A DNA stretch of 64,000 nt from contig JAUWYP010000006.1 of the NCBI GenBank assembly GCA_030615765.1, forward strand, positions 20,278 to 84,277, given 5' to 3'. Both the position numbers and the translations under genes were made by a program. Under the pieces are notes generated by a model. The model saw only the letters and a list, made by a program, of their open reading frames with translations. It did no database searches and was not told where the DNA came from. Shown here in pieces: positions 8,556-27,019 of the stretch. Numbering within the stretch: the first letter of the stretch is position 1; each line of letters opens with the position of its first letter. This stretch comes from Dehalococcoidia bacterium (GTDB lineage Bacteria; Chloroflexota; Dehalococcoidia; SM23-28-2).

Positions 8556-8620
8556 CCCGCTCATCCTGAGCTTGTCGAAGGACCGGGGCTCATGGTTCGA
8601 CAGGCTCACCATGAGCGGGC
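8556..8620. repeat. REP-like intergenic inverted repeat
   Basis: cccgctcatcctgagcttgtcgaaggaccggggctcatggttcgacaggctcaccatgagcggg: imperfect palindrome (CGCTCATcctGAGCtTGTCGAA / reverse complement CGCTCATggtGAGCcTGTCGAA). Confidence 0.8.
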
Positions 8621-8669
8621 CATGTCTCCTTGAGCGTGGCTGGTGGCGATGCTAGAATCGTGACCAGCC

Positions 8670-9560
8670 ATGCCAGCGAGAAGGATCAGCGTCCGCGCTC
8701 CCGCTACGACCGCCAACCTGGGCCCCGGGTTCGACTGCCTGGGGATGGCGCTTGACCTGTGGGCGGAGGTGGTGGTCAGCGCGTCCGACGAGCCACTGCC
8801 CCCGCCGGGTCCGCCGCTGGGGGGGATGGTGGTGGAGGCAGCCGAGCGGCTGTTCGCGCACCTCGGCAAGGAGTCACCGGCGGGTCTGACCGCGGAGTTC
8901 AGGCAAGAGATACCGGTGGCTCGCGGCCTGGGGGCCAGCGCCGTAGCGCGAGCGGCGGGGCTGCTGGCGGCGAACGCTCTCCTGGGCGAGGCGCTGGAGC
9001 GCGAGGAGATCCTGGCGCTGGGGGCTGAGCTGGAGGGCCACGCCGACAACATGGCGCCCGTACTGTTCGGCGGGCTTCAGGTGGCGGTGCACGAAGGCGA
9101 GAGCGTGTTTCACGCCGGGCTGGCCGCACCCGCGGGCCTGAGGGCCGTCCTGTTCGTGCCGGACATGGAGATGCCCACGCAGGAGAGCCGCCAGGTGCTG
9201 CCCGACTTCCTCTCGCGGGAGGATGCGGTCTATAATATTGGCCACGCGGCCCTACTGGTGGCGGCGCTGGCCTCGGGGAGGGTGGACCTGCTGGACGTGG
9301 CCACTCGCGATCGACTGCACCAGCCGGCGCGGGCGAAGGTCTTCCCGGCGATGGAGGCGATCTTCCAGGCGGCCCGCCAGGCGGGAGCCCTCGGCGTGTT
9401 CCTGTCGGGCGGCGGGTCGACCGTCCTCGCGCTGGCGTCGCGGAACGAGGAGGCCATCGCCCAGGCGATGGCCGAGGCCGCGGCCGGGGAGGACACGAGC
9501 GGCCACACGATCGTCACGGCTCCCAGCAATGCGGGAGCGCAAGTAGTGGAGGAGGGTTGA
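8670..9560 (+). CDS. thrB: Homoserine kinase
   Basis: VRAPATTANLGPGFDCLGMALDLW...VARGLGASAVARAAGLLAANALLG: GHMP kinase motifs; adjacent to lysC. Confidence 0.93.
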   Translation: MPARRISVRAPATTANLGPGFDCLGMALDLWAEVVVSASDEPLPPPGPPLGGMVVEAAERLFAHLGKESPAGLTAEFRQEIPVARGLGASAVARAAGLLAANALLGEALEREEILALGAELEGHADNMAPVLFGGLQVAVHEGESVFHAGLAAPAGLRAVLFVPDMEMPTQESRQVLPDFLSREDAVYNIGHAALLVAALASGRVDLLDVATRDRLHQPARAKVFPAMEAIFQAARQAGALGVFLSGGGSTVLALASRNEEAIAQAMAEAAAGEDTSGHTIVTAPSNAGAQVVEEG

Positions 9561-9569
9561 GGGAAAGCG

Positions 9570-10793
9570 ATGGCTATCATTGTTCAGAAGTACGGCGGCA
9601 CCTCCATAGCGGATGCCGAGAAGATCAAGAACGTGGCGCGGCGGGTGGGCGCTCGGCGCGACAAGGGCGACGACCTGGTGGTAGTCGTCTCGGCGATGGG
9701 CAAGACCACAGACCAGCTCATCGACCTGGCGTACCAGATGAGCGACGAGCCGGAGGACCGCGAGATGGACGTGCTCGTGTCCACCGGCGAGACGGTATCG
9801 AGCAGCCTGATGGCCATGGCGCTGCGATCGATGGGCTATCCGGCGATCAGCCTGTCGGGGGCGCAGGCGGGCATCGGCACGGAGGCGCGGTACGGCCGCG
9901 CTCGCATCCTCTCGATCGACCCTGAGCGCATCCACAAGGAGCTGAAGGAAGGGAAGATCGTGATCGTGGCCGGGTTCCAGGGGATCTGCGAGGAGATGGA
10001 CATCACGACCCTGGGGCGTGGCGGCTCGGACACAACGGGCGTGGCGCTGGCGGTGGGCCTGAAGGCAGACAAATGCGAGATCTACAGCGACGTGGACGGC
10101 ATCTACACCACCGACCCCCGCGTCGAGCCGAATGCGCGCAAGCTGAAGGAGATAAACTACGAGGAGATGCTGGAGCTGGCCACCTACGGCGCCAGGGTGA
10201 TGCACAACCGGGCGGTGGAGCTGGGCAAGGTGTACAACATGCCCATTCTGGTGGCATCCAGCACCCGCGACGTGCCGGGGACTCTCATTCACGGAGGGAC
10301 AGAGATGGTAGAGCAGCGAAACAAGGTAAGCGGCATCGCCTCCGATTCGGACGTGGCGAAGGTGACGGTGCGCGGCGTGCCCGACCGGCCGGGGATCGCC
10401 GCCGGCCTGTTCGGGCCGCTGTCGGACGCGGGCATAAGCGTGGACACCATCGTCCAGAACGCCAGCGTGGAGAACATCACCGACCTGACGTTCACCGTGG
10501 CCCGCAACGACCTGGATAAGGCGATGAAACTAGTGGAGTCGCTGGGCCGGAAGATCAACGCCAGCGAAGTAGTGTACGACCTCCATCTGGCCAAGGTGAG
10601 CATCGTGGGAGCGGGGATGCAGAGCGGGCCCGGCTATGCGGCGACGATGTTCCGCACGCTGTTCGACGAGGGCATCAACATCGAGCTGATCACGACGAGC
10701 GAGATCCGGATCACCTGCATCATCGACGAGTCGAAGGTGACCGAGGCCGTGCGCGCTCTCCACAAGGCGTTCGAGCTGGAGGAGCCAGACTAG
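9570..10793 (+). CDS. lysC: Aspartate kinase
   Basis: MAIIVQKYGGTSIADAEKIKNVARRV...LGRGGSDTTGVALAVGLKADKCEIYSDVDGIYTTDPR; two C-terminal ACT domains. Confidence 0.97.
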   Translation: MAIIVQKYGGTSIADAEKIKNVARRVGARRDKGDDLVVVVSAMGKTTDQLIDLAYQMSDEPEDREMDVLVSTGETVSSSLMAMALRSMGYPAISLSGAQAGIGTEARYGRARILSIDPERIHKELKEGKIVIVAGFQGICEEMDITTLGRGGSDTTGVALAVGLKADKCEIYSDVDGIYTTDPRVEPNARKLKEINYEEMLELATYGARVMHNRAVELGKVYNMPILVASSTRDVPGTLIHGGTEMVEQRNKVSGIASDSDVAKVTVRGVPDRPGIAAGLFGPLSDAGISVDTIVQNASVENITDLTFTVARNDLDKAMKLVESLGRKINASEVVYDLHLAKVSIVGAGMQSGPGYAATMFRTLFDEGINIELITTSEIRITCIIDESKVTEAVRALHKAFELEEPD

Positions 10794-10816
10794 GCCGCCT
10801 GGCTGCAGAGGAAGCG

Positions 10817-10845
10817 AAGAGGGGTGCCGGTTTGGCACCCCTCTT
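10817..10845 (+). terminator. Hairpin terminator after lysC
   Basis: AAGAGGGGTGCC-GGTTT-GGCACCCCTCTT, perfect 12-bp stem 24 bp after the lysC stop; followed by a T-rich stretch. Confidence 0.75.
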
Positions 10846-10882
10846 GCCTTTGTCCTGTTGCTTGCTTCTAACGGTCGTTCCC

Positions 10883-11152
10883 CTAGAAGGACTGCATGTC
10901 GCCCACGCGCTGGCCCGCGCTGAAGGCCTCCACGCCGACAAGATCGGGGATGCGCTCGAAGAGTATGCGCTCGATGCCCGCCCTGAGAGTCATGGTGGCC
11001 ATGGGGCAGCCGGCACAGGCGCCTACCATCTCCAGCTTGACGATGCCGTCCTCGGTAATCTCCACCAACTCGACGTTGCCGCCGTCGGCCTGAAGAGCCG
11101 GGCGGATCTCGTCCAGCACCTCCTGGACGGCCTCGACAGTTATCTTCGCCAT
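10883..11152 (-). CDS. NifU C-terminal-like Fe-S scaffold protein
   Basis: 89 aa, [21 protein letters not shown]...[21 protein letters not shown]; CxxC typical of the NifU-CTD. Confidence 0.9.
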
Positions 11153-11218
11153 GAGTCTCCTCTCGTCGTTGTCAGATCAAACCCTTCATAAAAAGCATAC
11201 CCTACCGCCAGATGAGCG

Positions 11219-12139
11219 TCAATTTGGGGTCGCTCGCACCCTAGGCAGCACCTCGCGGGCGTAGACCTCCAGGTGAGTGGGCAGCTCGGCCGGCGGGGCG
11301 ATGGGCACGAGGATAAAGTGGCGAACGCCTGCCTCCACGTACTGGCCGAGCCGCTCGGCGCACTGGTCGGGTGTGCCCAGAACGCAGTAGCGGTCGACGA
11401 TGCGGTCGAAGGGCTGGTTGTAGCGCAGGCTGAGGTCCTGGTTGGCGCGCTGGCGGGCCTCCTCGTACGTATCGGCCAGGCAGATGAACTGGTAGAGGCC
11501 GGCCTCGATGCTGGTCGGGTCGCGCCCGCGCTGTTGGGCGAAGGCTGAGACCTTCTCGAGGCTGTCGCGATAGCGCTCCGGGCTGAACAGATAGGGCATG
11601 TAGCCATCGCCCAACCTGGCCGCCCGCTTGATGGCCGCCTCCGAGCGCCCGGCTATCCAGATGGGCGGGCCGGGCTTCTGGACGGGCTTGGGCTGCATGT
11701 TGGCGTCCTCCAGGCGGAAGAACCGCCCCTCGTGGTTGACGCCCGATTCGCTCCACAGCCTGCGCATCACCTCGATGGCCTCGTCGGTTCGCCTGCCCCG
11801 CTCCTTCACGGGTACGCCGCAGGCCACGAACTCGCGAGGGAATTCGCCGCCGACACCAACGCCGAGGATGATGCGGCCGTTGGAGATGATGTCCAGGCTG
11901 GCGACCTCCTTGGCCACTACGGTGGGATGCCTGAGCGGCAAGAGGAGGACGGCCGAGCCCAGGAGGATGCGCTGGGTGCGGGCGGCGAAGGCAGCGAGCA
12001 CGGTGATAGCGTCGAAGGTGGGGACAAAGAAAAGCATGTGCTCGCTAACCCAGAGGGAATCGAAGCCCAATTCCTCCACGCGCTGAGCCTGCTCGAGGGG
12101 CATCGGCCAGAGGAAGACACCGAACTTTACCTCAGCCAT
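11219..12139 (-). CDS. LLM-class (F420/FMN-dependent) flavin oxidoreductase
   Basis: 306 aa; VEELGFDSLWVSEHM...RILLGSAVLLLPLRHPTVVAKEVASLDIISNGRIILGVGVGGEFPREF. Confidence 0.88.
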   Translation of the reverse strand: MAEVKFGVFLWPMPLEQAQRVEELGFDSLWVSEHMLFFVPTFDAITVLAAFAARTQRILLGSAVLLLPLRHPTVVAKEVASLDIISNGRIILGVGVGGEFPREFVACGVPVKERGRRTDEAIEVMRRLWSESGVNHEGRFFRLEDANMQPKPVQKPGPPIWIAGRSEAAIKRAARLGDGYMPYLFSPERYRDSLEKVSAFAQQRGRDPTSIEAGLYQFICLADTYEEARQRANQDLSLRYNQPFDRIVDRYCVLGTPDQCAERLGQYVEAGVRHFILVPIAPPAELPTHLEVYAREVLPRVRATPN

Positions 12140-12398
12140 GGGGCTTTCCTCCTGCTGGTTGACAGCGTTCTGACGGAACTATAACCTTGGGGCCGCTGCT
12201 CGCCAAGCGTCGAGTATACCATCACAAGGGGCATTCGGGCTGCCGCTGGAGATATAGGCGGACCGGCCACAGGATCCGCGGAAGTGAAGGCAAGGGGGCA
12301 AGCGCTGGCTCACGCCTCCGGCCTCGGCACGGGACCAAAAATTCCTGGAGATTTTAACATAAGCTGTGCACACCGCCCGCTTGCGGCTGCTATAATAC

Positions 12399-12417
12399 CC
12401 TTTGCGCGTCGCAAAGG
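12399..12417 (+). promoter_or_regulatory. Inverted repeat covering the dnaE ribosome-binding region
   Basis: CCTTTGCG-CGT-CGCAAAGG; the 3' arm contains the SD-like AAAGG before ATG 12423; TATAAT at 12391-12396. Confidence 0.5.
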
Positions 12418-12422
12418 AACAA

Positions 12423-15400
12423 ATGTTTACTCACCTTCACCTTCACACCGAATACAGCCTTCTGGACGGCCTGGCCCGCATCCCTCAGCTGATGGAACGA
12501 GCCCAGGAGCTGGGGCAAGAGGCCATCGCCCTAACCGACCACGGCATACTCTACGGGGCCGTGCCCTTCTACAAGGAGGCCAAAGCGCGCGGCCTGAAAC
12601 CGATCATCGGCGTCGAGGCTTACCTGGCCCAGGGGTCGCGCCACTCGCGCGAGGCCAAGGACAGGCATCCCTATCACATCACCCTTCTCGCCAGGGACCT
12701 GCAGGGCTACCGCAACCTGCTGGCGCTGGCGACCAAGGCCCACCTGGAGGGCCACTACTACCGGCCGCGCGTGGACAAGGAGTTGCTTCAGCAACACCAC
12801 GAGGGACTCATCGCCCTCTCCGGCTGCCAGAGCGGCGAGGTGCTGCGCCTGCTGGCCGACGGCCACTGGGAGGAGGCGGTCGGGGCGGCCCAATGGTATC
12901 GAGAGGTCTTCGGCGAGTTCTACCTAGAGCTTCAGGACCACAACATCCCCGAGGTGACCAATCTTAACGAGAAGCTGGTGCGCCTCTCGCGGGAGACGGG
13001 CCTGCCGCTGGTGGCCACCAACGATGTCCACTTCGTTCTTCGCGAGGATGCCCCTACTCAGGACATCTTGCTCTGCATCGGCACCAACACCTCGATCCTG
13101 GACGAGCGGCGGATGCGCCTAGCCGGCGACGCCGACTCCTACTACCTGAAGTCCGAGGAGGAGATGCGCCAGCTCTTCGGGGACGTGCCGGAGGCCATCG
13201 AGAACAGCTGGCGGATCGCCGAGATGTGTGACCTGGAGCTGGAGTTCGGACATCTGCACCTGCCCGAGGCCGACGTCCCCCAGGGCATGTCGGCAGACGA
13301 CTATCTGGCCCAGCTTTGCCACGAGGGCCTGGGCCGTCGCTATCCGAACGGCTCGGAAGAACCGCGCCGTCGGCTGGAGTATGAGCTGTCGGTGGTGCAG
13401 CAGACGGGCTTCAGCCACTACATCCTGGTGGTGCACGACTTCGCTCAGTTCGCCAGGGCGCAGGGCATCCTCATGGCCGTGCGCGGCTCGGCCGCCGGCA
13501 GTATCATCCTCTATTGCCTGGGGGTGACCGACATCGACCCCCTGGCGTACCGCCTGGTGTTCGAGCGGTTCCTGAACGTGGAACGACGGGAGCTGCCCGA
13601 CGTCGACCTGGACTTCGCCGAGGACCGCCGCGACGAGGTGATACGGTATGCCGCCCAGAAGTATGGCTACGACCGGGTGGCCCAGATCATCACCTTCGGC
13701 ACCATGGGGGCCAAGGCGGCGATCCGCGATGTCGGCCGGGCGCTGGGGATGACCTACGCCGACGTGGACCGGGTGGCGCGCCTGGTGCCCAGCGTCCTCA
13801 ACATGACCATCGACCGCGCGCTGGCGGGCAACAACGAGCTGAGCAGCATCTACGAGGCGGACGAACAGGTGCAGCGGCTGGTGGACACTGCCAAGGAACT
13901 GGAGGGCGTCGCCCGGCACGCCAGCACCCACGCCGCCGGCGTAGTCATCGCTCCCGAGCCGCTGGTCCACTTCCTCCCCCTGCAGCGGCCGGCCCATGCC
14001 CTGTCCGCCGGCAAGGAGGACGATGGCACACCGATCCCCACTACTCAGTACGCCATGGAGGCGGTGGCGGACATCGGCCTGCTGAAGATGGACTTCCTGG
14101 GCCTGGCCAACCTCACGATTCTGGGCAAGGCGGTGGACATCATACGTGAGACGCGCGGGGTGGAGATCGATCTGCAGGCACTGCCCGACGGCGACGCCAA
14201 GACGTACGCGACGCTGTGGGAGGGGCAGACGTTCGGGGTGTTCCAGCTGGAGAGCAGCGGCATGCGCCGCTACATCCAGGAGCTGAAGCCCACGGCGATC
14301 AGGGACCTGGCGGCGATGGTCGCTCTGTACCGGCCGGGGCCCATGCAGCACATTCCCACCTACACTCGGGCCAAGCACAGGCTGGAGGATATCCGCTATC
14401 CGCATCCTGACCTGGCAGACATCCTGGACGAGACGTACGGCGTAATCGTCTACCAGGATCAGGTTCTGCTTATCGCCCAGAAGTTCGCCGGCTACACCCT
14501 GGGCGAGGCCGACGTCATGCGCAAGGCGATGGGCAAGAAGATCTCTGCCGTGATGGCCGCGGAAAGGGAGCGCTTTATGGCCGGGGCCAGGGCCAACGGG
14601 TACAGCGGAGCCCAGGCTGACCAGGTCTTCGACTTGATCGAGCCGTTCGCCGGCTACGCCTTCAACAAGGCCCACGCCGTCTGCTACGCCAACATCGCCT
14701 ACCAGACGGCATACCTCAAGGCGAACTACCCTGCCGAGTACATGACCGCCGTCCTCATGCTGGCGGGGCACCACCCGACGGGCGCGGCTCAGCGGGTGGC
14801 CGAGGCCTACCCCGAGTGCGCTCGCCTGGGCATTAGCGTTCTGCCGCCCGACGTGAACCACAGCCGCGTCAGCTTCGCGCTGGAGGAACAGGAGGACGGG
14901 AGCCTGGCTATCCGCTTCGGCCTGGCGAACATCAAGAACGTGGGGACAGGCATCGTGGAGGGGATCATCGAGGCCCGCGACGAGGGTCAGCCCTTCGCCT
15001 CAATGGAGGACTTCTGCCAGCGGGTCAACTGCCGCTATCTCAACAAGCGGGCGCTGGAGAGCATGATCAAGGCCGGCGCCTTCGACTGCCTTGGCGTGCG
15101 GGGCACGCTGCTGGCGAACCTGGACCGCTCCATCAGCATAGCGCAGAGGGCGCAGAAGGTGCGGGAGTCGGGCCAGGCGACGCTGTTCGACGTCTTCGGG
15201 GAGAGCGTCTCCGGCCCGAGCCCGGAGGCAGGCGAGTCGGAGGGGGCCCTGGCCAGCGAGCTCGCCTGGGAGAAGGAGCTTCTGGGCGTCTACGTCTCTG
15301 AGCACCCGCTCAGCCGGGCGGCTGCGGCCCTGAGCAAGCGGGTCACCGCCATGTGCAGCGAGGTCTCGGCGGAGATGGTCGGACGGGAGCTGGTGATCGC

Positions 15401-15938
15401 CGGCATTGTCACGTCCACTCGCCAGATCCTCACCCGCGCCGGCCGCCTCTTCCTGGCCGCTGAGATCGAGGACCTCTCGGGGAGCGTGGAGGTCACCGTC
15501 TGGCCGGATGTCTACGACCAGACGCGCGACCTGTGGGCCGAAGGAAACATCGTTATTCTGAACGTGCGCGTTCGCACCCGCAACGACCGCCTGCAGCTGA
15601 GCGTGCAGAAGGCCACCGCCTACCAGGAAGAAGCCAACCCAGGGCCGGACAACGGCGATTCTGCCGCTGACCCTCCTGTCGCCCGCCAGAGAGCCAACGC
15701 CGCACGCGCCCTGCGCGTCACCCTCAGGGAAACGGATGACAGCGAGGGCGATCAGGAGCGCCTGCGGGCGGTGATGAGCGCGCTGGAGGAGTTCGAGGGG
15801 GAAGACGAGGTGGTGCTGACCATCCGCCAGCAGGACGGCGACGAGGTGGAGCTGGAGCTACCGAGGACGCGCGCCTGCGAGGAGCTGAGCCAACGCCTCA
15901 GCGCTGTGCTGGGAGACGAGGGGGCAGTGCTGCTGTAG
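12423..15938 (+). CDS. dnaE: DNA polymerase III subunit alpha
   Basis: MFTHLHLHTEYSLLDGLARI (PHP), DFAQFARAQGILMAVRGSAAGSIILYCLGVTDIDPL, PDVDLDFAEDRRDEVIRY, OB-fold C-terminus. Confidence 0.97.
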   Translation: MFTHLHLHTEYSLLDGLARIPQLMERAQELGQEAIALTDHGILYGAVPFYKEAKARGLKPIIGVEAYLAQGSRHSREAKDRHPYHITLLARDLQGYRNLLALATKAHLEGHYYRPRVDKELLQQHHEGLIALSGCQSGEVLRLLADGHWEEAVGAAQWYREVFGEFYLELQDHNIPEVTNLNEKLVRLSRETGLPLVATNDVHFVLREDAPTQDILLCIGTNTSILDERRMRLAGDADSYYLKSEEEMRQLFGDVPEAIENSWRIAEMCDLELEFGHLHLPEADVPQGMSADDYLAQLCHEGLGRRYPNGSEEPRRRLEYELSVVQQTGFSHYILVVHDFAQFARAQGILMAVRGSAAGSIILYCLGVTDIDPLAYRLVFERFLNVERRELPDVDLDFAEDRRDEVIRYAAQKYGYDRVAQIITFGTMGAKAAIRDVGRALGMTYADVDRVARLVPSVLNMTIDRALAGNNELSSIYEADEQVQRLVDTAKELEGVARHASTHAAGVVIAPEPLVHFLPLQRPAHALSAGKEDDGTPIPTTQYAMEAVADIGLLKMDFLGLANLTILGKAVDIIRETRGVEIDLQALPDGDAKTYATLWEGQTFGVFQLESSGMRRYIQELKPTAIRDLAAMVALYRPGPMQHIPTYTRAKHRLEDIRYPHPDLADILDETYGVIVYQDQVLLIAQKFAGYTLGEADVMRKAMGKKISAVMAAERERFMAGARANGYSGAQADQVFDLIEPFAGYAFNKAHAVCYANIAYQTAYLKANYPAEYMTAVLMLAGHHPTGAAQRVAEAYPECARLGISVLPPDVNHSRVSFALEEQEDGSLAIRFGLANIKNVGTGIVEGIIEARDEGQPFASMEDFCQRVNCRYLNKRALESMIKAGAFDCLGVRGTLLANLDRSISIAQRAQKVRESGQATLFDVFGESVSGPSPEAGESEGALASELAWEKELLGVYVSEHPLSRAAAALSKRVTAMCSEVSAEMVGRELVIAGIVTSTRQILTRAGRLFLAAEIEDLSGSVEVTVWPDVYDQTRDLWAEGNIVILNVRVRTRNDRLQLSVQKATAYQEEANPGPDNGDSAADPPVARQRANAARALRVTLRETDDSEGDQERLRAVMSALEEFEGEDEVVLTIRQQDGDEVELELPRTRACEELSQRLSAVLGDEGAVLL

Positions 15939-15947
15939 GCTACGGCC

Positions 15948-17396
15948 TTACTCCTCCGGTATCTCCAGGGTGTGCAGGAGGTTGCCGTCGCCGTCCTTGA
16001 TCTCGATGACTACCTTGGCGGGGGTCTCGCTGGTCAGCACCTTCACCAGGCCGTAGTTGTAGATGTCCAGATTGTAGAACTCGTCCGTGATACCGGGGAG
16101 GAGTCCCTCCAGCAACTCGATCGAGACCTCCATGGCTTCCAACTCCTCGCCAATGGTCTCCCTGGCTATCGGCCCTATGATTATCTCCATGCAGCCGTTC
16201 TCCAGGGTGTTGACAATAGTGCCGTGGAGGTCGGTGGTCAGGAAGATGACGTTCTCGATGCCGTTGTCGGTAATGAAATTGAGCAGCTCCTCTCGCTCGG
16301 CGGGGTAGCCTTCCCAGCGGTCGTAAGGGAGGAGGATGAACTCGCTGATGGGCACCTCGTTGATAATGAACTTGAACTTGGCATCGGAGTTCAGGAGCGC
16401 CTGCTTGAGCCACTCTTTCTGCTCCGTGCCCAGAATGGTGCGCGAGGGGTCGCGGAGGCCTTCCAGGCAGGCCACGTCGCCGATGCGGGTGGGGAACTGC
16501 TCCTCCTCGCCCTCCTCGTCATAGCAGAAGAACTCGGCGCTGCGGTACTGGCGCTCGTCCAGGATAAAGAGCTCCACGTCCTTCCCCCAGCGGAAGCTTC
16601 GGTACAGGCGGTTGGGGTCATCCGGGCTCTGGCGGATGGGATTGTACTCGAAGAAGGCCTGGCGGCCGGCGGCCAGCATATCGGGGTCGACGGTCTCACC
16701 GGCGAAGTCGTTGACGACCTCGTGGTCGTCCCAGATGGCGTAGGTGGAGGTAGCGGCCATCAGCCCGGCCAGGTGCTCATCCTCTCGATTGTCCTTGTAG
16801 AGCTGGCGGTATTCCGGCAGGGTGGTAGCTGTCGGCAAGCCCTCTACCTCGGGGGGGTCAGCAATGACCGTATCGCCCAGGTAAACGAAGAAGTCGGGGG
16901 CATCCTCACGCACCGTAGACAGAAGGGTAAAGGGCTGGAGGTACGAGGCCGAATCGGCGGAGTAGGCGAAGACGACGTCGCTGACAACATCCTCGGCCGG
17001 GGCGGTCCGGAAGGTGCCGATGGGGCTGGCGGTGCCGTCGGGGGATAGGAAGCGATAGAAGTAGCTCGCGTCGGGGTCCAGGCCTTCGATGTCCGCCTTG
17101 ACCACGAAGTCGTTCTCTGCCTTGGCCTGCAGCCTCTCGCTGGCGACCACCTGCTCGAACTGTCCGTCGGAGGCCACCTCAGCGGTGAGCTCTGCCTCCG
17201 CGTCTACCCTGGTCCAGAGGATGACGCCGGTGTCGGTGACATCACCGCTGGCCACGCCATGGGTGAAGGCTGCCTCGGAAGGGGTAGGCGTGGCTGTGGC
17301 CGCTGGTGTGCCTTCCTCCTCTTCTTCGCCGCAGCCAGCGACAAGAGCCGCGAGGGAGACAAATAGGAAAAGGAAAAGAAACCATCTCCTAACCAT
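15948..17396 (-). CDS. Alkaline phosphatase D-like (PhoD family) lipoprotein
   Basis: Lipobox LAALVAGCGEEEE; FTHGVASGDVTDTGVILWTRV; DFFVYLGDTVIADP; YAIWDDHEVVNDF; metallophosphatase core. Confidence 0.9.
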   Translation of the reverse strand: MVRRWFLFLFLFVSLAALVAGCGEEEEEGTPAATATPTPSEAAFTHGVASGDVTDTGVILWTRVDAEAELTAEVASDGQFEQVVASERLQAKAENDFVVKADIEGLDPDASYFYRFLSPDGTASPIGTFRTAPAEDVVSDVVFAYSADSASYLQPFTLLSTVREDAPDFFVYLGDTVIADPPEVEGLPTATTLPEYRQLYKDNREDEHLAGLMAATSTYAIWDDHEVVNDFAGETVDPDMLAAGRQAFFEYNPIRQSPDDPNRLYRSFRWGKDVELFILDERQYRSAEFFCYDEEGEEEQFPTRIGDVACLEGLRDPSRTILGTEQKEWLKQALLNSDAKFKFIINEVPISEFILLPYDRWEGYPAEREELLNFITDNGIENVIFLTTDLHGTIVNTLENGCMEIIIGPIARETIGEELEAMEVSIELLEGLLPGITDEFYNLDIYNYGLVKVLTSETPAKVVIEIKDGDGNLLHTLEIPEE

Positions 17397-19157: not shown

Positions 19158-19985
19158 ATGAAAGATAAGAGCATTGTTGGAGACCTAATAAACTTTCGTG
19201 GGTTGGTCTATAGTCCGACTAACGAAAATGGGGTGATTTTCTTATTTGGCAAGGTCACCGAAGACCTAAATATGTACATCGAGGAAATCAAACCTGGGTT
19301 CCCAGATTGCGTAGGGAGAAGATTCACCGGTAGGGGATGGGAGAAGGTAAGCATCGAGTTTGAATACAAGAGCTTCCATTTCAAACAGCACAACCATAAC
19401 CCCAGCCATTGCGACGTTATAGTCTGCTGGGAACATGACTGGCCTGAATGTCCATTAGAAGTGATAGAGCTGAGAGCAGTTATCAAGTCGCTACCCAATA
19501 AGCCCATCGAACGACCGGACAAGGCGACGGAGAAGGGCAGACCTGGAGTTGAAGATCACCTTAAGCACTTCCCCGAGGAAGTTGAACGGTTATTCCATAA
19601 ATTCGACGAGAAGGTGAAGGAAATATCGGATGAAATCTGGCGCAAAGTCGTGCGTGTTCCGGGCGTCACATATTACTCACCGGAACGAGTTTTCATATAT
19701 CTGGATTTTCAAAAGGGCGGGCTGAAGTTGACCCTATTCACGAGGGGAGAAGAGCTAGATGGGGTCAAGAGCTTTGGATATGAAAAGGGCGGCGCAAAAT
19801 GGGGAAGAATACACCTGAGGCACGAGCAAGATGTTGAGAACATCCTATCAATCGTGAGGAAGTCCTATGAGCTCGTCAGGAAGGCAATTAAGAATAACGA
19901 GCCCACAGGATGGTATGCGGAACCTGAGGAAGAAGCAGAAGACGAGGGTGAAGAATTACCCGCAACCTCCGATGGCACAGTGTAA
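19158..19985 (+). CDS. Hypothetical protein; possible restriction-endonuclease-like N-terminus and DUF5655-like C-terminus
   Basis: 275 aa, visibly lower GC than neighbours; FPDCVGRR...VSIEFEYKSFHFKQHNHNPSHCDVIVCWEHDWPECPLEVIELRAVI and KLTLFTRGEELDGVKSFGYEKGG...IHLRHEQDVENILSIVRKSYELV. Confidence 0.7.
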   Translation: MKDKSIVGDLINFRGLVYSPTNENGVIFLFGKVTEDLNMYIEEIKPGFPDCVGRRFTGRGWEKVSIEFEYKSFHFKQHNHNPSHCDVIVCWEHDWPECPLEVIELRAVIKSLPNKPIERPDKATEKGRPGVEDHLKHFPEEVERLFHKFDEKVKEISDEIWRKVVRVPGVTYYSPERVFIYLDFQKGGLKLTLFTRGEELDGVKSFGYEKGGAKWGRIHLRHEQDVENILSIVRKSYELVRKAIKNNEPTGWYAEPEEEAEDEGEELPATSDGTV

Positions 19986-21002: not shown

Positions 21003-22124
21003 CTAGCCGAAGGCGTCCTTGATCTTGCCCAGGAGGCCTTTGTCGTCCTGGGAGTCTGCGGACGCCTTCAGGGTATCGTCCAAATCCTTTAGCAGACGCT
21101 TTTGCTCAGGGGTGAGGTTGGTGGGAACGATGACCCGGACGCGCACCAGCTCGTCGCCGCGGCCTTGACCGCGCAGGCGGGGCACGCCCTTGCCCTTGAG
21201 GACGAAGACGCGGCCGCTCTGGCTGCCGGGCGGGATCTTGAGATTGTGGGGCCCATCGAGGGTGGGAACCTGGAGCTGCACACCGAGGGCGGCCTGAGCG
21301 ATGTTGATGCCGAGGTCGAGGATGATATCGCTGTTGTCCCGCTGGAACAGCTCGTGGGGCGCTACACGGATGTCTATGTACAGATTGCCGGCCGGGCCGC
21401 CGTTCAGGCCGGCGTCGCCCTCGCGCGTGAGACGCATCTGGGAGCCGTCGTTGACGCCGGCGGGAATCTTGACCTCCAGGCGACGGCGATGGCGCTGGCG
21501 GCCGCTGCCGCGACAGTCCTTGCAGGGCTCGGTGATGATGCGGCCTTCGCCGCCACACTGCTGGCAGGCGGCGACGTTGACAAACTGACCGAAGAGGCTG
21601 CGCTGGACACGCCTGACCTCGCCGGTGCCGTCGCAGGCGGGACAGCGGGCCAGCTGGCTGCCGGGCTCGTTCCCCTGGCCGCCGCAGCGAGGGCAGAGCT
21701 CGGTGCGGGTGACCTCGATCTGCTTCTGGCAGCCGAAGGCGGCCTCCTCGAAGGCGATGATGAGGCGAGAGTGGTGATCGTTGCCGCGCCGCGGCTGTCT
21801 GCGCAAGCGGGTGCCTGTGCCGCCGAAGAAGGCGTCGAAGATGTCGCCGAAGCCGCCCATGTCGAAGCCATCGAAGGGGCGGCCGAGGTCGAAGCCCTGC
21901 AGGCCGTCGTGGCCGAAGCGGTCGTAGGACAGGCGACGCTCAGGGTCGGAGAGGACCTCGTAGGCCTCGTTTATCTGCTTGAAGCGGTCCTCGGCGCCGG
22001 CGTGCTTGTTGCGGTCGGGGTGGTACTGCATAGCGAGGCGGCGGAAGGCCTTCTTGATCTCTTCCGTGCTGGCGTTGCGGGGAACGCCGAGAATGTCGTA
22101 GTAGTCGCGCTTGGTCGTGGCCAT
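21003..22124 (-). CDS. dnaJ: Chaperone DnaJ
   Basis: [34 protein letters not shown]; four CxxCxGxG zinc-finger repeats. Confidence 0.98.
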
Positions 22125-22350
22125 AGTGATACATCTTCATTCTAACAGATGGAGGGTGTCAAGCGGCAAGTATCGCAGGAGAAGAAAAAGGCCGAGGGCC
22201 GTTTGTGACAGGCTCCGACCCCGTGGAAGTCCGCTTTGGTGAGTAGGCGGTCAGATGGTGGTTCTGTCTTAGGGAGCGCTACGCTTGCTCCTAAAGCCCA
22301 TCTTTTGCTGGAGCAGCCTATATTTCTCCTGAAGCAGCGAGAGCCGCAGC

Positions 22351-23157
22351 TCACGGAGCCGCCACTGAGTCAGTTTGAATCTCAAGATCTGTGATGGTCT
22401 TGTCGAAGCCTCTTCGCTGGCTTCGGTTTTCGCGCTCATTATAGACCTCTTCTAGGGCGCTGACGGTCTCTTGCTTTACGCTCTTGATGCCATCGTGACC
22501 TATCAGCAATATGTCAGTGGCTCGCCCGACGCCGCCTGCCATCTCTGCCTTCTTCTTCGCCTCGAATGCTATATACAAGGCGTCGTTGAGCGGGATGTGC
22601 TGGGTGTACCTGTACCAAGCAAAGACGTTGTCGGCGTGTCTCTCTCCCATGCCGGCACAACAGTATGCCATGTTGTCGTAGCTCCGCCAGATGCCTGGAT
22701 CAGCTATCAAGATAACGTGGCCCTGCTCGTCAACACCCGCTAGCAATAGCATCAAACCTAGCTGATATCCCCTAATGCGCTCGTTGAGTTCCATGACGAC
22801 GGCGTCGTGCAGGGTCCTTTGCTTCTCGTGGTATTCGGCGATGGTGCTGATGCCCGCACAGGGTCGCAGCACTTCGTCTTCGATGCGGCTGGTTCTTAGA
22901 TCCTGATATATCTCCTTCAGGCCATCAGCTATTTCTCTGATCCTCTCTTTCCCCCTGGTCTTTTCCCTTGCGTCCCTTATTAGGTCCGGCTCATGCATGG
23001 TCCCGGCTACCAGCACAACGGCCTTGTGCGCTATTGGCTGTGCTTTGCTCTCCTCCGGCTCGAATGCCAAGGTCATGTCGGCAGTGGAGACCATCCTGTC
23101 CGAGACGGTTACGACCTTCTTGCCGCCTTCGCAGATTGCCGCTATTAGCTGAGTCAT
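22351..23157 (-). CDS. Proteasome/HslV-like Ntn-hydrolase-fold protein (tentative)
   Basis: MTQLIAAICEGGKKVVTVSDRMVSTADMTLAFEPEESKAQPIAHKAVVLVAGTMHEPDLIRDARE...AGGVGRATDILLIGHDG: Thr directly after Met, Asp-Arg after the first strand pair, downstream Lys, AGT and GGVGRxTDI-DG blocks reminiscent of beta-type proteasome subunits. Confidence 0.6.
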   Translation of the reverse strand: MTQLIAAICEGGKKVVTVSDRMVSTADMTLAFEPEESKAQPIAHKAVVLVAGTMHEPDLIRDAREKTRGKERIREIADGLKEIYQDLRTSRIEDEVLRPCAGISTIAEYHEKQRTLHDAVVMELNERIRGYQLGLMLLLAGVDEQGHVILIADPGIWRSYDNMAYCCAGMGERHADNVFAWYRYTQHIPLNDALYIAFEAKKKAEMAGGVGRATDILLIGHDGIKSVKQETVSALEEVYNERENRSQRRGFDKTITDLEIQTDSVAAP

Positions 23158-23247
23158 CCGCCGGCCCCCTTTGTGTTGTCCTGGCGAATTATCTCACAAT
23201 CCGTCCCGTTGCGCCTACGTGGCGGAGCGACGCAAGTGCGAAAGAAA

Positions 23248-23283
23248 AAGGCCGAGACCGCCGCTCCTGCAGACCTCGGCCTT
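23248..23283 (-). terminator. Rho-independent-like terminator after dnaK
   Basis: Minus strand AAGGCCGAG...CTCGGCCTT followed by TTTCTTTCG; 12 bp downstream of the dnaK stop. Confidence 0.75.
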
Positions 23284-23294
23284 GGTGCTGCCGT

Positions 23295-25193
23295 TCACAC
23301 CTCCCGGAACTCGCCCTCGACGGTGCCCTCGTCGGCGGGGCCCTCGCCCTCAGGGCCGGGCGGCTCGCCGCCCTCCGGCGGCGGAGGCCCTGCCTGGCCG
23401 TAGACGTGGGCACCCATCCTCTGCATAGCCTCGGATAGGGCACCTACGGCGAGGCGGATGGCCTCCATATCGGTGCCCTGGAGGGCGTCGCGCAGCTCCT
23501 TTACCTTGGCCTCGACCGCGGTGCGCATGTCGTCCGGGATCTTGTCGCCGAGCTCGCGGAGGGTCTTGTCGGCGTTGTAGGCCATGCTGTCGGCCTGGTT
23601 GCGCAGCTCGATCTCCTCGCGGCGGCGGCGATCCTCCTCGGCGTAGGTCTCCGCCTCCTGCTTCATCTTCTCGATCTCTTCCTTGGACAGGCCAGAGCCA
23701 GCGACGATGGTGATCTTCTGCTCGCGGCCGGTGCCCTTGTCGCGGGCGCTGACGTTGAGGATGCCGTTAGCATCGATGTCGAAGCTTACCTCGACCTGAG
23801 GCATACCGCGGGGCGCCGGCAGGAGGCCGTCGAGAAGGAAGCGGCCCAACGACTTGTTGTCGGCAGCCATAGCGCGGTCACCCTGGAAGACGTGAACCTC
23901 GACGCTGGGCTGGTTGTCGGCGGCGGTGGTGAAGACCTGGCTCTTGGCGGTGGGGATGGTGGTGTTGCGGGGGATGACGGGCGTGGCGACGCCGCCCAGC
24001 GTCTCGATGCCCAGAGTGAGGGGCGTCACGTCCAGGAGAAGGACGTCGCGCACCTCGCCCTTGAGCACACCGGCCTGGATGGCGGCGCCGATGGCCACCA
24101 CCTCGTCGGGGTTGACGCCCTTGTGGGTCTCGCGACCGAAGAACTTCTTCACCGTCTCCTGCACGAGGGGCATGCGGGTCTGGCCGCCGACGAGGATCAC
24201 CTCGCCGATCTGGGCGGCGGTGACGCCGGCGTCCTCGAGGGCCTGGCGGCAGGGCCCGACGGTCTGCTCCACCAGGTCGCCGACAAGCTGCTCGAGCTTG
24301 GCGCGCGTGAGGACGATGTTCATGTGCTTGGGGCCGCTGGCGTCGGCGGTGACGAAGGGCAGGTTGATCTCGCTCTGCATGACGGTGGACAGCTCCACCT
24401 TGGCCTTCTCGCCCGCCTCCTTGAGGCGCTGAAGGGCCATGCGGTCCTGCTTGAGGTCGATGCCCTGATCGCGCTTGAACTCCTCGCAGAGCCACTCGAT
24501 GATCCGCTGGTCGAAGTCATCGCCGCCGAGGTGGGTATCGCCGTTGGTGGACTTGACCTCGAAGGTACCCTCGCCGATCTCCAGGATGGAGATGTCGAAG
24601 GTGCCGCCACCGAGGTCGTAGACGGCGATGGTCTTCTCCTCCTTCTTGTCCATGCCGTAGGCGAGGGAGGCTGCCGTGGGCTCGTTGATGATGCGCAGGA
24701 CGTTGAGGCCGGCGATCTCGCCGGCGGCCTTGGTGGCCTGGCGCTGGCTGTCGTTGAAGTAGGCGGGAACGGTGATCACCGCCTCGCTCACGCTGTCGCC
24801 GAGATAGGCCTCGGCGTCGGTCTTCAGCTTCTGGAGGATCATCGCCGAGATCTCCGCCGGCGAGTAGGAGCGGTCGCCCATCGAGACGCGGGCATCGCCG
24901 TTGTCGGCGGCGTCGAGCTTATAGGGCAGGACCTTGACGTCCCCTTGCACCTCGGGCTCCTCGAAGCGGCGGCCCATGAGGCGCTTGATGCTGAAGATGG
25001 TGTTGTCGGGGTTGGTGATGGCCTGGCGCTTGGCGACCTGGCCGGTGAGGCGCTCGCCGCTCTTGCTCATGGCCACGACCGAAGGCGTGATGCGGCCTCC
25101 CTCAGCGTTGGGGATGACTACGGGCTCACCGCCCTCCATGACGGCCACACAGCTGTTGGTAGTTCCCAAGTCGATTCCGATTACTTTAGGCAT
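23295..25193 (-). CDS. dnaK: Chaperone DnaK
   Basis: [41 protein letters not shown]...; full-length Hsp70. Confidence 0.99.
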
Positions 25194-26976: not shown

Positions 26977-27019
26977 AATAGGAGTTAGCACTCTAAGGTC
27001 GAGAGTGCTAACTCCTATT
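26977..27019. promoter_or_regulatory. CIRCE operator (HrcA binding site), core 26985-27011, extended to 17-bp arms
   Basis: TTAGCACTC-N9-GAGTGCTAA is a perfect consensus; flanks extend the palindrome to AATAGGAGTTAGCACTC-N9-GAGTGCTAACTCCTATT. Confidence 0.97.

Follow-up and report, generated by a model that had tools for sequence, protein, structure and literature searches.

A gene for a proteasome-like Ntn hydrolase that lies between dnaK and dnaJ in a Dehalococcoidia bacterium raises the question whether its product belongs to the Hsp70 system or whether its place there is accidental. The window, the whole stretch of 64,000 nucleotides that was analysed, carries on one strand the order hrcA-grpE-dnaK-[Ntn gene]-dnaJ-prmA, and a sequence-only reading had seen in this gene an uncharacterised self-compartmentalising peptidase linked to Hsp70. 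The account favoured here, to which we give a probability of roughly 0.74, is that of a stand-alone proteasome-like Ntn hydrolase encoded on a foreign insert, which is not an Hsp70 component and whose family is in part cargo of IS1595 transposons.

22354..23157, minus strand: proteasome-like Ntn hydrolase gene, 268 amino acids (22351-23157 with the stop codon), from the open reading frame, homolog alignment and model
23295..25193, minus strand: dnaK (Pfam), host context judged to lie outside the unit
21003..22124, minus strand: dnaJ (Pfam), host context judged to lie outside the unit

Much of the earlier description of the locus holds. The reading frame is as given there, the protein begins with MTQLIAAICEGGKKVVTVSDRMVS and also contains GGVGRATDILLIGHDG, Thr2, Asp20-Arg21 and Lys38 stand where they had been placed, and the gene is oriented like its two neighbours, whose identity as dnaK and dnaJ is backed by Pfam. 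Its lower G+C content (55.0%, compared with 66.8% in dnaK, 67.2% in dnaJ and 65% in the window) and the lack of an ATPase partner beside it were likewise borne out, the latter by a tblastn search across the whole window in which no CDC48-type AAA+ homolog was matched.

A proteasome-type fold in a sparsely distributed family

The modelled window protein has a proteasome-type Ntn fold, as had been proposed from the sequence. AlphaFold2, run on an 11-row alignment, returned the alpha-beta-beta-alpha architecture of proteasome beta subunits (pLDDT 90.2, pTM 0.87), and Foldseek against the PDB gave proteasome subunits throughout the listed matches, with the Thermoplasma acidophilum beta subunit at a TM score of 0.83 by target length and an rmsd of 3.2. 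On its own the sequence is below Pfam detection, without any match, and has merely weak matches to archaeal proteasome and PDB proteasome sequences, while the family profile matches PDB proteasome chains with an E value of 7.5e-10 and seven of 11 family members match PF00227 (best E 1.1e-12). Alignment with hhalign to psmB, the T. acidophilum beta subunit (E 4.5e-10), pairs Asp20 with Glu17, Lys38 with Lys33 and Gly52 with Gly47; the T. acidophilum sequence that was used matches 1pma/3c91 over its full length. A homolog borne by an insertion sequence (L080) is modelled less confidently (pLDDT 76) with the same topology, two-helix insertion included, and also matches proteasome subunits in the PDB.

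Homologs occur in Chloroflexota and Acidobacteriota, range from 59% to about 21% identity and keep the same residues, the closest being L005 in an Acidobacteriia MAG (59% identical). With the final profile 13 of 393 genomes of the window's own class were positive, a few of them through weak matches to other proteasome-like families, and with profile A2 13 of 250 genomes of one acidobacteriotal class; a phylum-wide sample of 301 genomes gave matches only in same-class genomes already known. The genome of the window (G000) encodes two further PF00227 proteins, L084 on contig C33 and L088 on contig C19, of which L084, having a counterpart in the genus-mate G001, may have been inherited vertically. 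Another homolog (L020, 8605-9819) carries a C-terminal extension of about 140 residues and has in its vicinity a calcineurin-like phosphatase and a repeat-containing kinase-like protein.

A probable insertion in the spacer between dnaK and dnaJ

The surroundings of the gene contain signals of transcription and translation together with a pair of direct repeats:

26985..27011, plus strand: host context, a perfect CIRCE operator 5' of hrcA
23241..23283, minus strand: intrinsic terminator after dnaK, a 10-bp G+C-rich stem AAGGCCGAGG..CTCGGCCTT followed by TTTCTTTC (-24.2 kcal/mol, z -1.9)
23242..23256, minus strand: direct repeat, copy 1, 15 bp, CTCGGCCTTTTTCTT, flanking the insert towards dnaK
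23188..23196, minus strand: TGAGATAAT, resembling an extended -10 promoter element, 5' of the Ntn gene, read by eye
23165..23170, minus strand: Shine-Dalgarno-like AGGGGG, 7 nt 5' of the Ntn start codon, read by eye
22182..22196, minus strand: direct repeat, copy 2, 15 bp, CTCGGCCTTTTTCTT, flanking the insert towards dnaJ

The CIRCE operator is expected to govern hrcA-grpE-dnaK, and the hairpin after dnaK, which a terminator scan overlooked because its loop limit was 8, separates dnaK from the Ntn gene. Hairpin and T-run can also be read by eye after dnaK in the order-mate G004, which is devoid of the Ntn gene. The gene is probably read from a promoter of its own, for which the extended -10 element is the candidate; a consensus scan that requires a -35 element listed no promoter upstream of it.

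The two copies of the 15-mer CTCGGCCTTTTTCTT, one to either side of the Ntn gene, are the only ones in 64 kb, and when the flanks were shuffled 3000 times they never shared a word of this length. If the insert is removed together with one repeat copy, a dnaK-dnaJ gap of 110 bp is left, close to the approximately 130 bp found in the relative L047 of G004, an order-mate taken for the empty-site comparison because in the contig of the genus-mate G001 parts of the sequence immediately upstream of dnaJ are masked and dnaK does not adjoin dnaJ. The third codon positions of the gene are poorer in G+C as well (GC3 67.5% vs 91.6% in dnaK), and the nearest relative L005 is likewise of low G+C in its own contig (48 vs 63%). 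The gene was found neither in two other sampled genomes of the genus (74-82% complete) nor in the sampled family, and it is missing from nearly all sampled order-mates; one genome of the order (G015) has a homolog borne by an insertion sequence with about 25% identity.

The Ntn gene is thus best read as a recent, foreign low-G+C insertion that separates two transcription units: it would have landed in the spacer between a CIRCE-controlled hrcA-grpE-dnaK-terminator unit and the dnaJ unit. With the dnaK terminator, the low-G+C insert with its 15-bp repeats and the absence of the gene from sampled relatives, the supposed Hsp70 linkage did not stand up, and the Hsp70 link of the gene is most likely incidental. 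A second foreign-looking gene of low G+C content (48%), weakly DUF5655-like, lies near dnaJ and prmA on the opposite strand (19158-19985, plus strand).

Relatives as cargo of IS1595-type transposons

Members of the family are repeatedly carried as IS1595 cargo. Pfam annotation of the flanks followed by direct search placed an IS1595/ISXO2-like transposase directly beside the homolog at eight loci, L019 and L023 in Chloroflexota and L071, L076, L080, L081, L089 and L091 in Acidobacteriota, and a truncated transposase fragment at L072. The surveyed genomes hold 0-14 IS1595 transposases each, so that adjacency by chance is expected at 0.005 loci, and finding it at 7 or more of 25 has a probability of about 1e-21. 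In seven elements transposase and Ntn gene are both bracketed by inverted-repeat ends (25/25 bp in L076, 24/25 in L080, 20/20 in L071, 15/15 in L081, 22/23 in L091, 22/24 in L019 and with more mismatches in L023), which exceed the shuffle control wherever this was run and within which the Ntn gene is convergent to the transposase. Direct repeats of 8-9 bp, read by eye, flank L076 (ATTTCTCC) and L081 (ACAAGGAGG), whereas those of the L071/L090 and L080/L091 pairs are not independent evidence since their flanks are alike beyond the ends. The family is spread at least partly as a passenger of IS1595/ISXO2-type transposons. In the tree, transposon-borne and free copies are interleaved; carriage by a transposon is scattered over it and lacking in 17 of 26 rows, so that free-standing copies are common.

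Genome G980 contains two near-identical elements, L071 (9191-11600) and L090 (1036-3611), each with a different proteasome-like passenger. Their transposases are 94% identical and their ends the same, the passenger DNA is unrelated although that of L090 also encodes a protein above the PF00227 cut-off, and the pair hence has conserved flanks and transposase around a replaced passenger region. Ntn hydrolases might form a recurrent functional class of IS1595 cargo, with at least two distinct subfamilies in near-identical elements of one genome and an enzyme that serves the element and not housekeeping proteolysis, for example by processing the transposase, by weakening proteostasis or immunity in the host, or by working as a module for addiction or against other elements; we hold this idea only tentatively. 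Cargo such as an adenine methylase with a nuclease, PIN, NYN and DUF3800 proteins is associated with defence or addiction. These are the neighbours of other IS1595 transposases surveyed (L096-L099: adenine methylase and PD-(D/E)XK nuclease, PIN, NYN, DUF3800), which suggests IS1595 cargo of a defence type. For the Ntn family, assignment to a known defence or phage family was rejected as no meaningful PADLOC or PHROGs match was obtained, and so was carriage by phages or plasmids, with no family match in plasmids for six query proteins or in phages and viral contigs for one to three queries.

Whether IS1595 also brought the gene of the window to its place is a separate matter. No IS1595 transposase was found in searches of G000 and no inverted repeat in the flanks of the Ntn gene exceeds the shuffled controls, both of which speak against such an arrival. 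Transposon-end remnants around the gene were considered and rejected, as the matches are at noise level. The closest relatives L005 and L025 are likewise without a transposase, and no member of the clade that they form with the window protein bears one. It is conceivable, though we consider it rather unlikely, that the gene arrived by IS1595 transposition, on a cassette that had no transposase and the ends of which have decayed, and not by recombination at the terminator-like repeats. The cargo status of its relatives speaks in favour of this route, as does L022, where a perfect 18-bp inverted repeat (133-150 and 1348-1365) encloses an Ntn homolog without transposase in what is possibly a mobile insertion cassette; yet, apart from the missing transposase and end motifs, the direct repeat of 15 bp differs from the target duplications of IS1595, which are usually 8 bp (PMC8101967). 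In the reading favoured here the window gene is a stranded copy, without transposase, in an IS1595-mobilised family.

The active centre and what the enzyme might do

Thr2 corresponds to the mature Thr1 of proteasome beta subunits, and Asp20, Lys38 and Gly52 correspond to their Asp17, Lys33 and Gly47. Conservation, on which, together with the fold confirmed above, the sequence-only reading had staked its assignment, is high among 22 divergent homologs: the nucleophile is Thr in 20, Ser in one and Ala in one (the copy L071 in an insertion sequence), Asp20 is present in 22/22, Lys38 in 21/22 and Gly52 in 19/22. In nearly every family member the Thr directly follows the start codon, so that a propeptide is not expected. 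Once methionine aminopeptidase had removed the Met, as is expected, the exposed Thr1 would form an active centre of the Thr-protease type together with Asp19, Lys37 (Thr1 numbering) and an oxyanion site at Gly51; Lys37 would activate Thr1, and an amide bond would be cleaved, or transferred, via an acyl-enzyme intermediate.

In the proteasome, a second triad in which Ser129 acts with Asp166 protonates the Thr1 nitrogen (PMC4792962). This second triad of an active 20S-type centre is not present in the window protein, which has Met170 at the position of Ser129 and probably Glu205 as the counterpart of Asp166; among homologs Ser is kept at the Ser129 position in about half, and Ile or Thr occur as well. 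With Ser129 replaced by Met, activity could be weak or altered. The preserved primary triad and the altered second one together make catalytic activity likely, not certain, and proteolysis would be its presumed form. A catalytically dead, alpha-subunit-like binding protein would agree with this Met, with the Ala and the Ser at the nucleophile position of one homolog each and with the lack of Lys in one homolog, but such a protein is improbable when Thr, Asp, Lys and Gly are kept together down to about 21% identity and nearly all members have the Thr immediately after the start codon.

The AlphaFold2 model has an extra helical insertion at residues ~102-130 (helices 106-112 and 118-130), which follows helices H1-H2. 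The H3-H4 insertion is absent, helices 172-181 and 190-207 being joined by a loop of 8 residues. The stretch from Gly52 to the following core strand is about 35 residues longer than in the T. acidophilum beta structure, and a helical insertion of this size would make a canonical ring doubtful. A helical insertion and the lack of an ATPase partner are also features of connectase, which shows that the fold is capable of transfer or ligation (PMC8665760), so that the window protein could be conceived of as a transferase or ligase and not a protease; the connectase insertion, however, sits between S3 and S4 in a protein without H1-H2, whereas the window protein has H1-H2 and its insertion comes after them, and we regard a connectase-like function as quite improbable.

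The heat-shock neighbourhood

In a survey of genomic neighbourhoods no other intact homolog was found near dnaK or dnaJ, at variance with the linkage that had been expected. Locus L025 (G103) contains at 8600-16500 a gas-vesicle cluster that includes a DnaK of its own, proteins of the Hsp20 type and an AAA+ ATPase resembling CDC48, and here a homolog 45% identical over 167 residues directly follows the CDC48-like gene on the same strand, about 4 kb from the dnaK-like gene. Both this dnaK and the Ntn gene are frameshifted, as pseudogenes or through assembly errors. A gas-vesicle cluster in G855 (L052, 5000-17600) encodes a 70% identical CDC48-like ATPase and has no Ntn gene. In that cluster the ATPase adjoins GvpF/L and an AAA_5 ATPase (GvpN-like), where CDC48 appears as a gas-vesicle-cluster gene. 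CDC48 as the AAA+ partner in G103 was rejected on account of the frameshifted Ntn gene, the gas-vesicle setting and the G855 cluster without an Ntn gene.

That the protein is co-expressed with dnaK and dnaJ in heat shock, assembles into a ring and degrades chaperone-delivered substrates, as its same-strand position between the two genes, the arrangement in G103 and the discussion of uncapped 20S acting with Hsp70 (PMC8665760) might invite one to think, is very improbable in view of the terminator after dnaK, the low G+C content with direct repeats, the absence from nearly all sampled order-mates, the unconserved linkage, the frameshifted copy in G103 with its Ntn-free counterpart in G855 and the helical insertion, which argues against a canonical ring.

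Significance and comparison with known systems

The account of a stand-alone Ntn hydrolase on a foreign insert corrects the tempting reading of a place between dnaK and dnaJ, a reading that is probably mistaken. New is the cargo relationship of the family with IS1595, not the heat-shock location: the survey of Fuchs, Alva and Lupas (2021; PMC8665760), which described new proteasome homologs, found that genomic context gave no hint of function, and text searches gave no paper naming both IS1595 and proteasome. The association supplies the genomic context that this survey had lacked and helps to account for the scattered occurrence of these genes in different phyla. The function of an orphan proteasome homolog becomes testable via a defined genetic unit, the transposon with or without its Ntn passenger.

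With group II, WPH, PHI and PMI-1 to PMI-6 of the 2021 survey (PMC8665760) the window protein shares the proteasome-beta fold, the Thr/Asp/Lys/Gly47 set, the absence of a propeptide, the C-terminal helix H5 and the lack of a known AAA+ partner, and with PHI, PMI-3 and PMI-4 also a helical insertion after H1-H2. Set against the published definition, PMI-2 to PMI-6 differ in having the H3-H4 insertion that the window model is without, and for all these groups no telling context was reported, whereas the window's family is repeatedly IS1595 cargo. HslV, Anbu and 20S beta (PF00227) have the same fold and catalytic triad, and Escherichia coli HslV also has its N-terminal Thr directly after the start Met; proteasome beta is only about 15% identical to the window protein, which differs from these enzymes by its two-helix insertion, the Met at Ser129 and the lack of an HslU, Mpa or ARC neighbour.

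Among insertion sequences, those that carry passenger genes form a recognised type (Siguier 2009, as cited in PMC3129680). The elements described here resemble the IS1595 members of this type ('transporter IS') in their DDE_Tnp_IS1595 transposase with zinc ribbon, inverted ends and passenger gene and, for some Ntn elements, in direct repeats of the 8-bp type, and they differ in that the passenger is a proteasome-like hydrolase, which was reported in no paper found. PPH and AAH (PMC8665760) are likewise proteasome-like genes moved by mobile elements, but of the compact group I type and carried by phages rather than by transposons.
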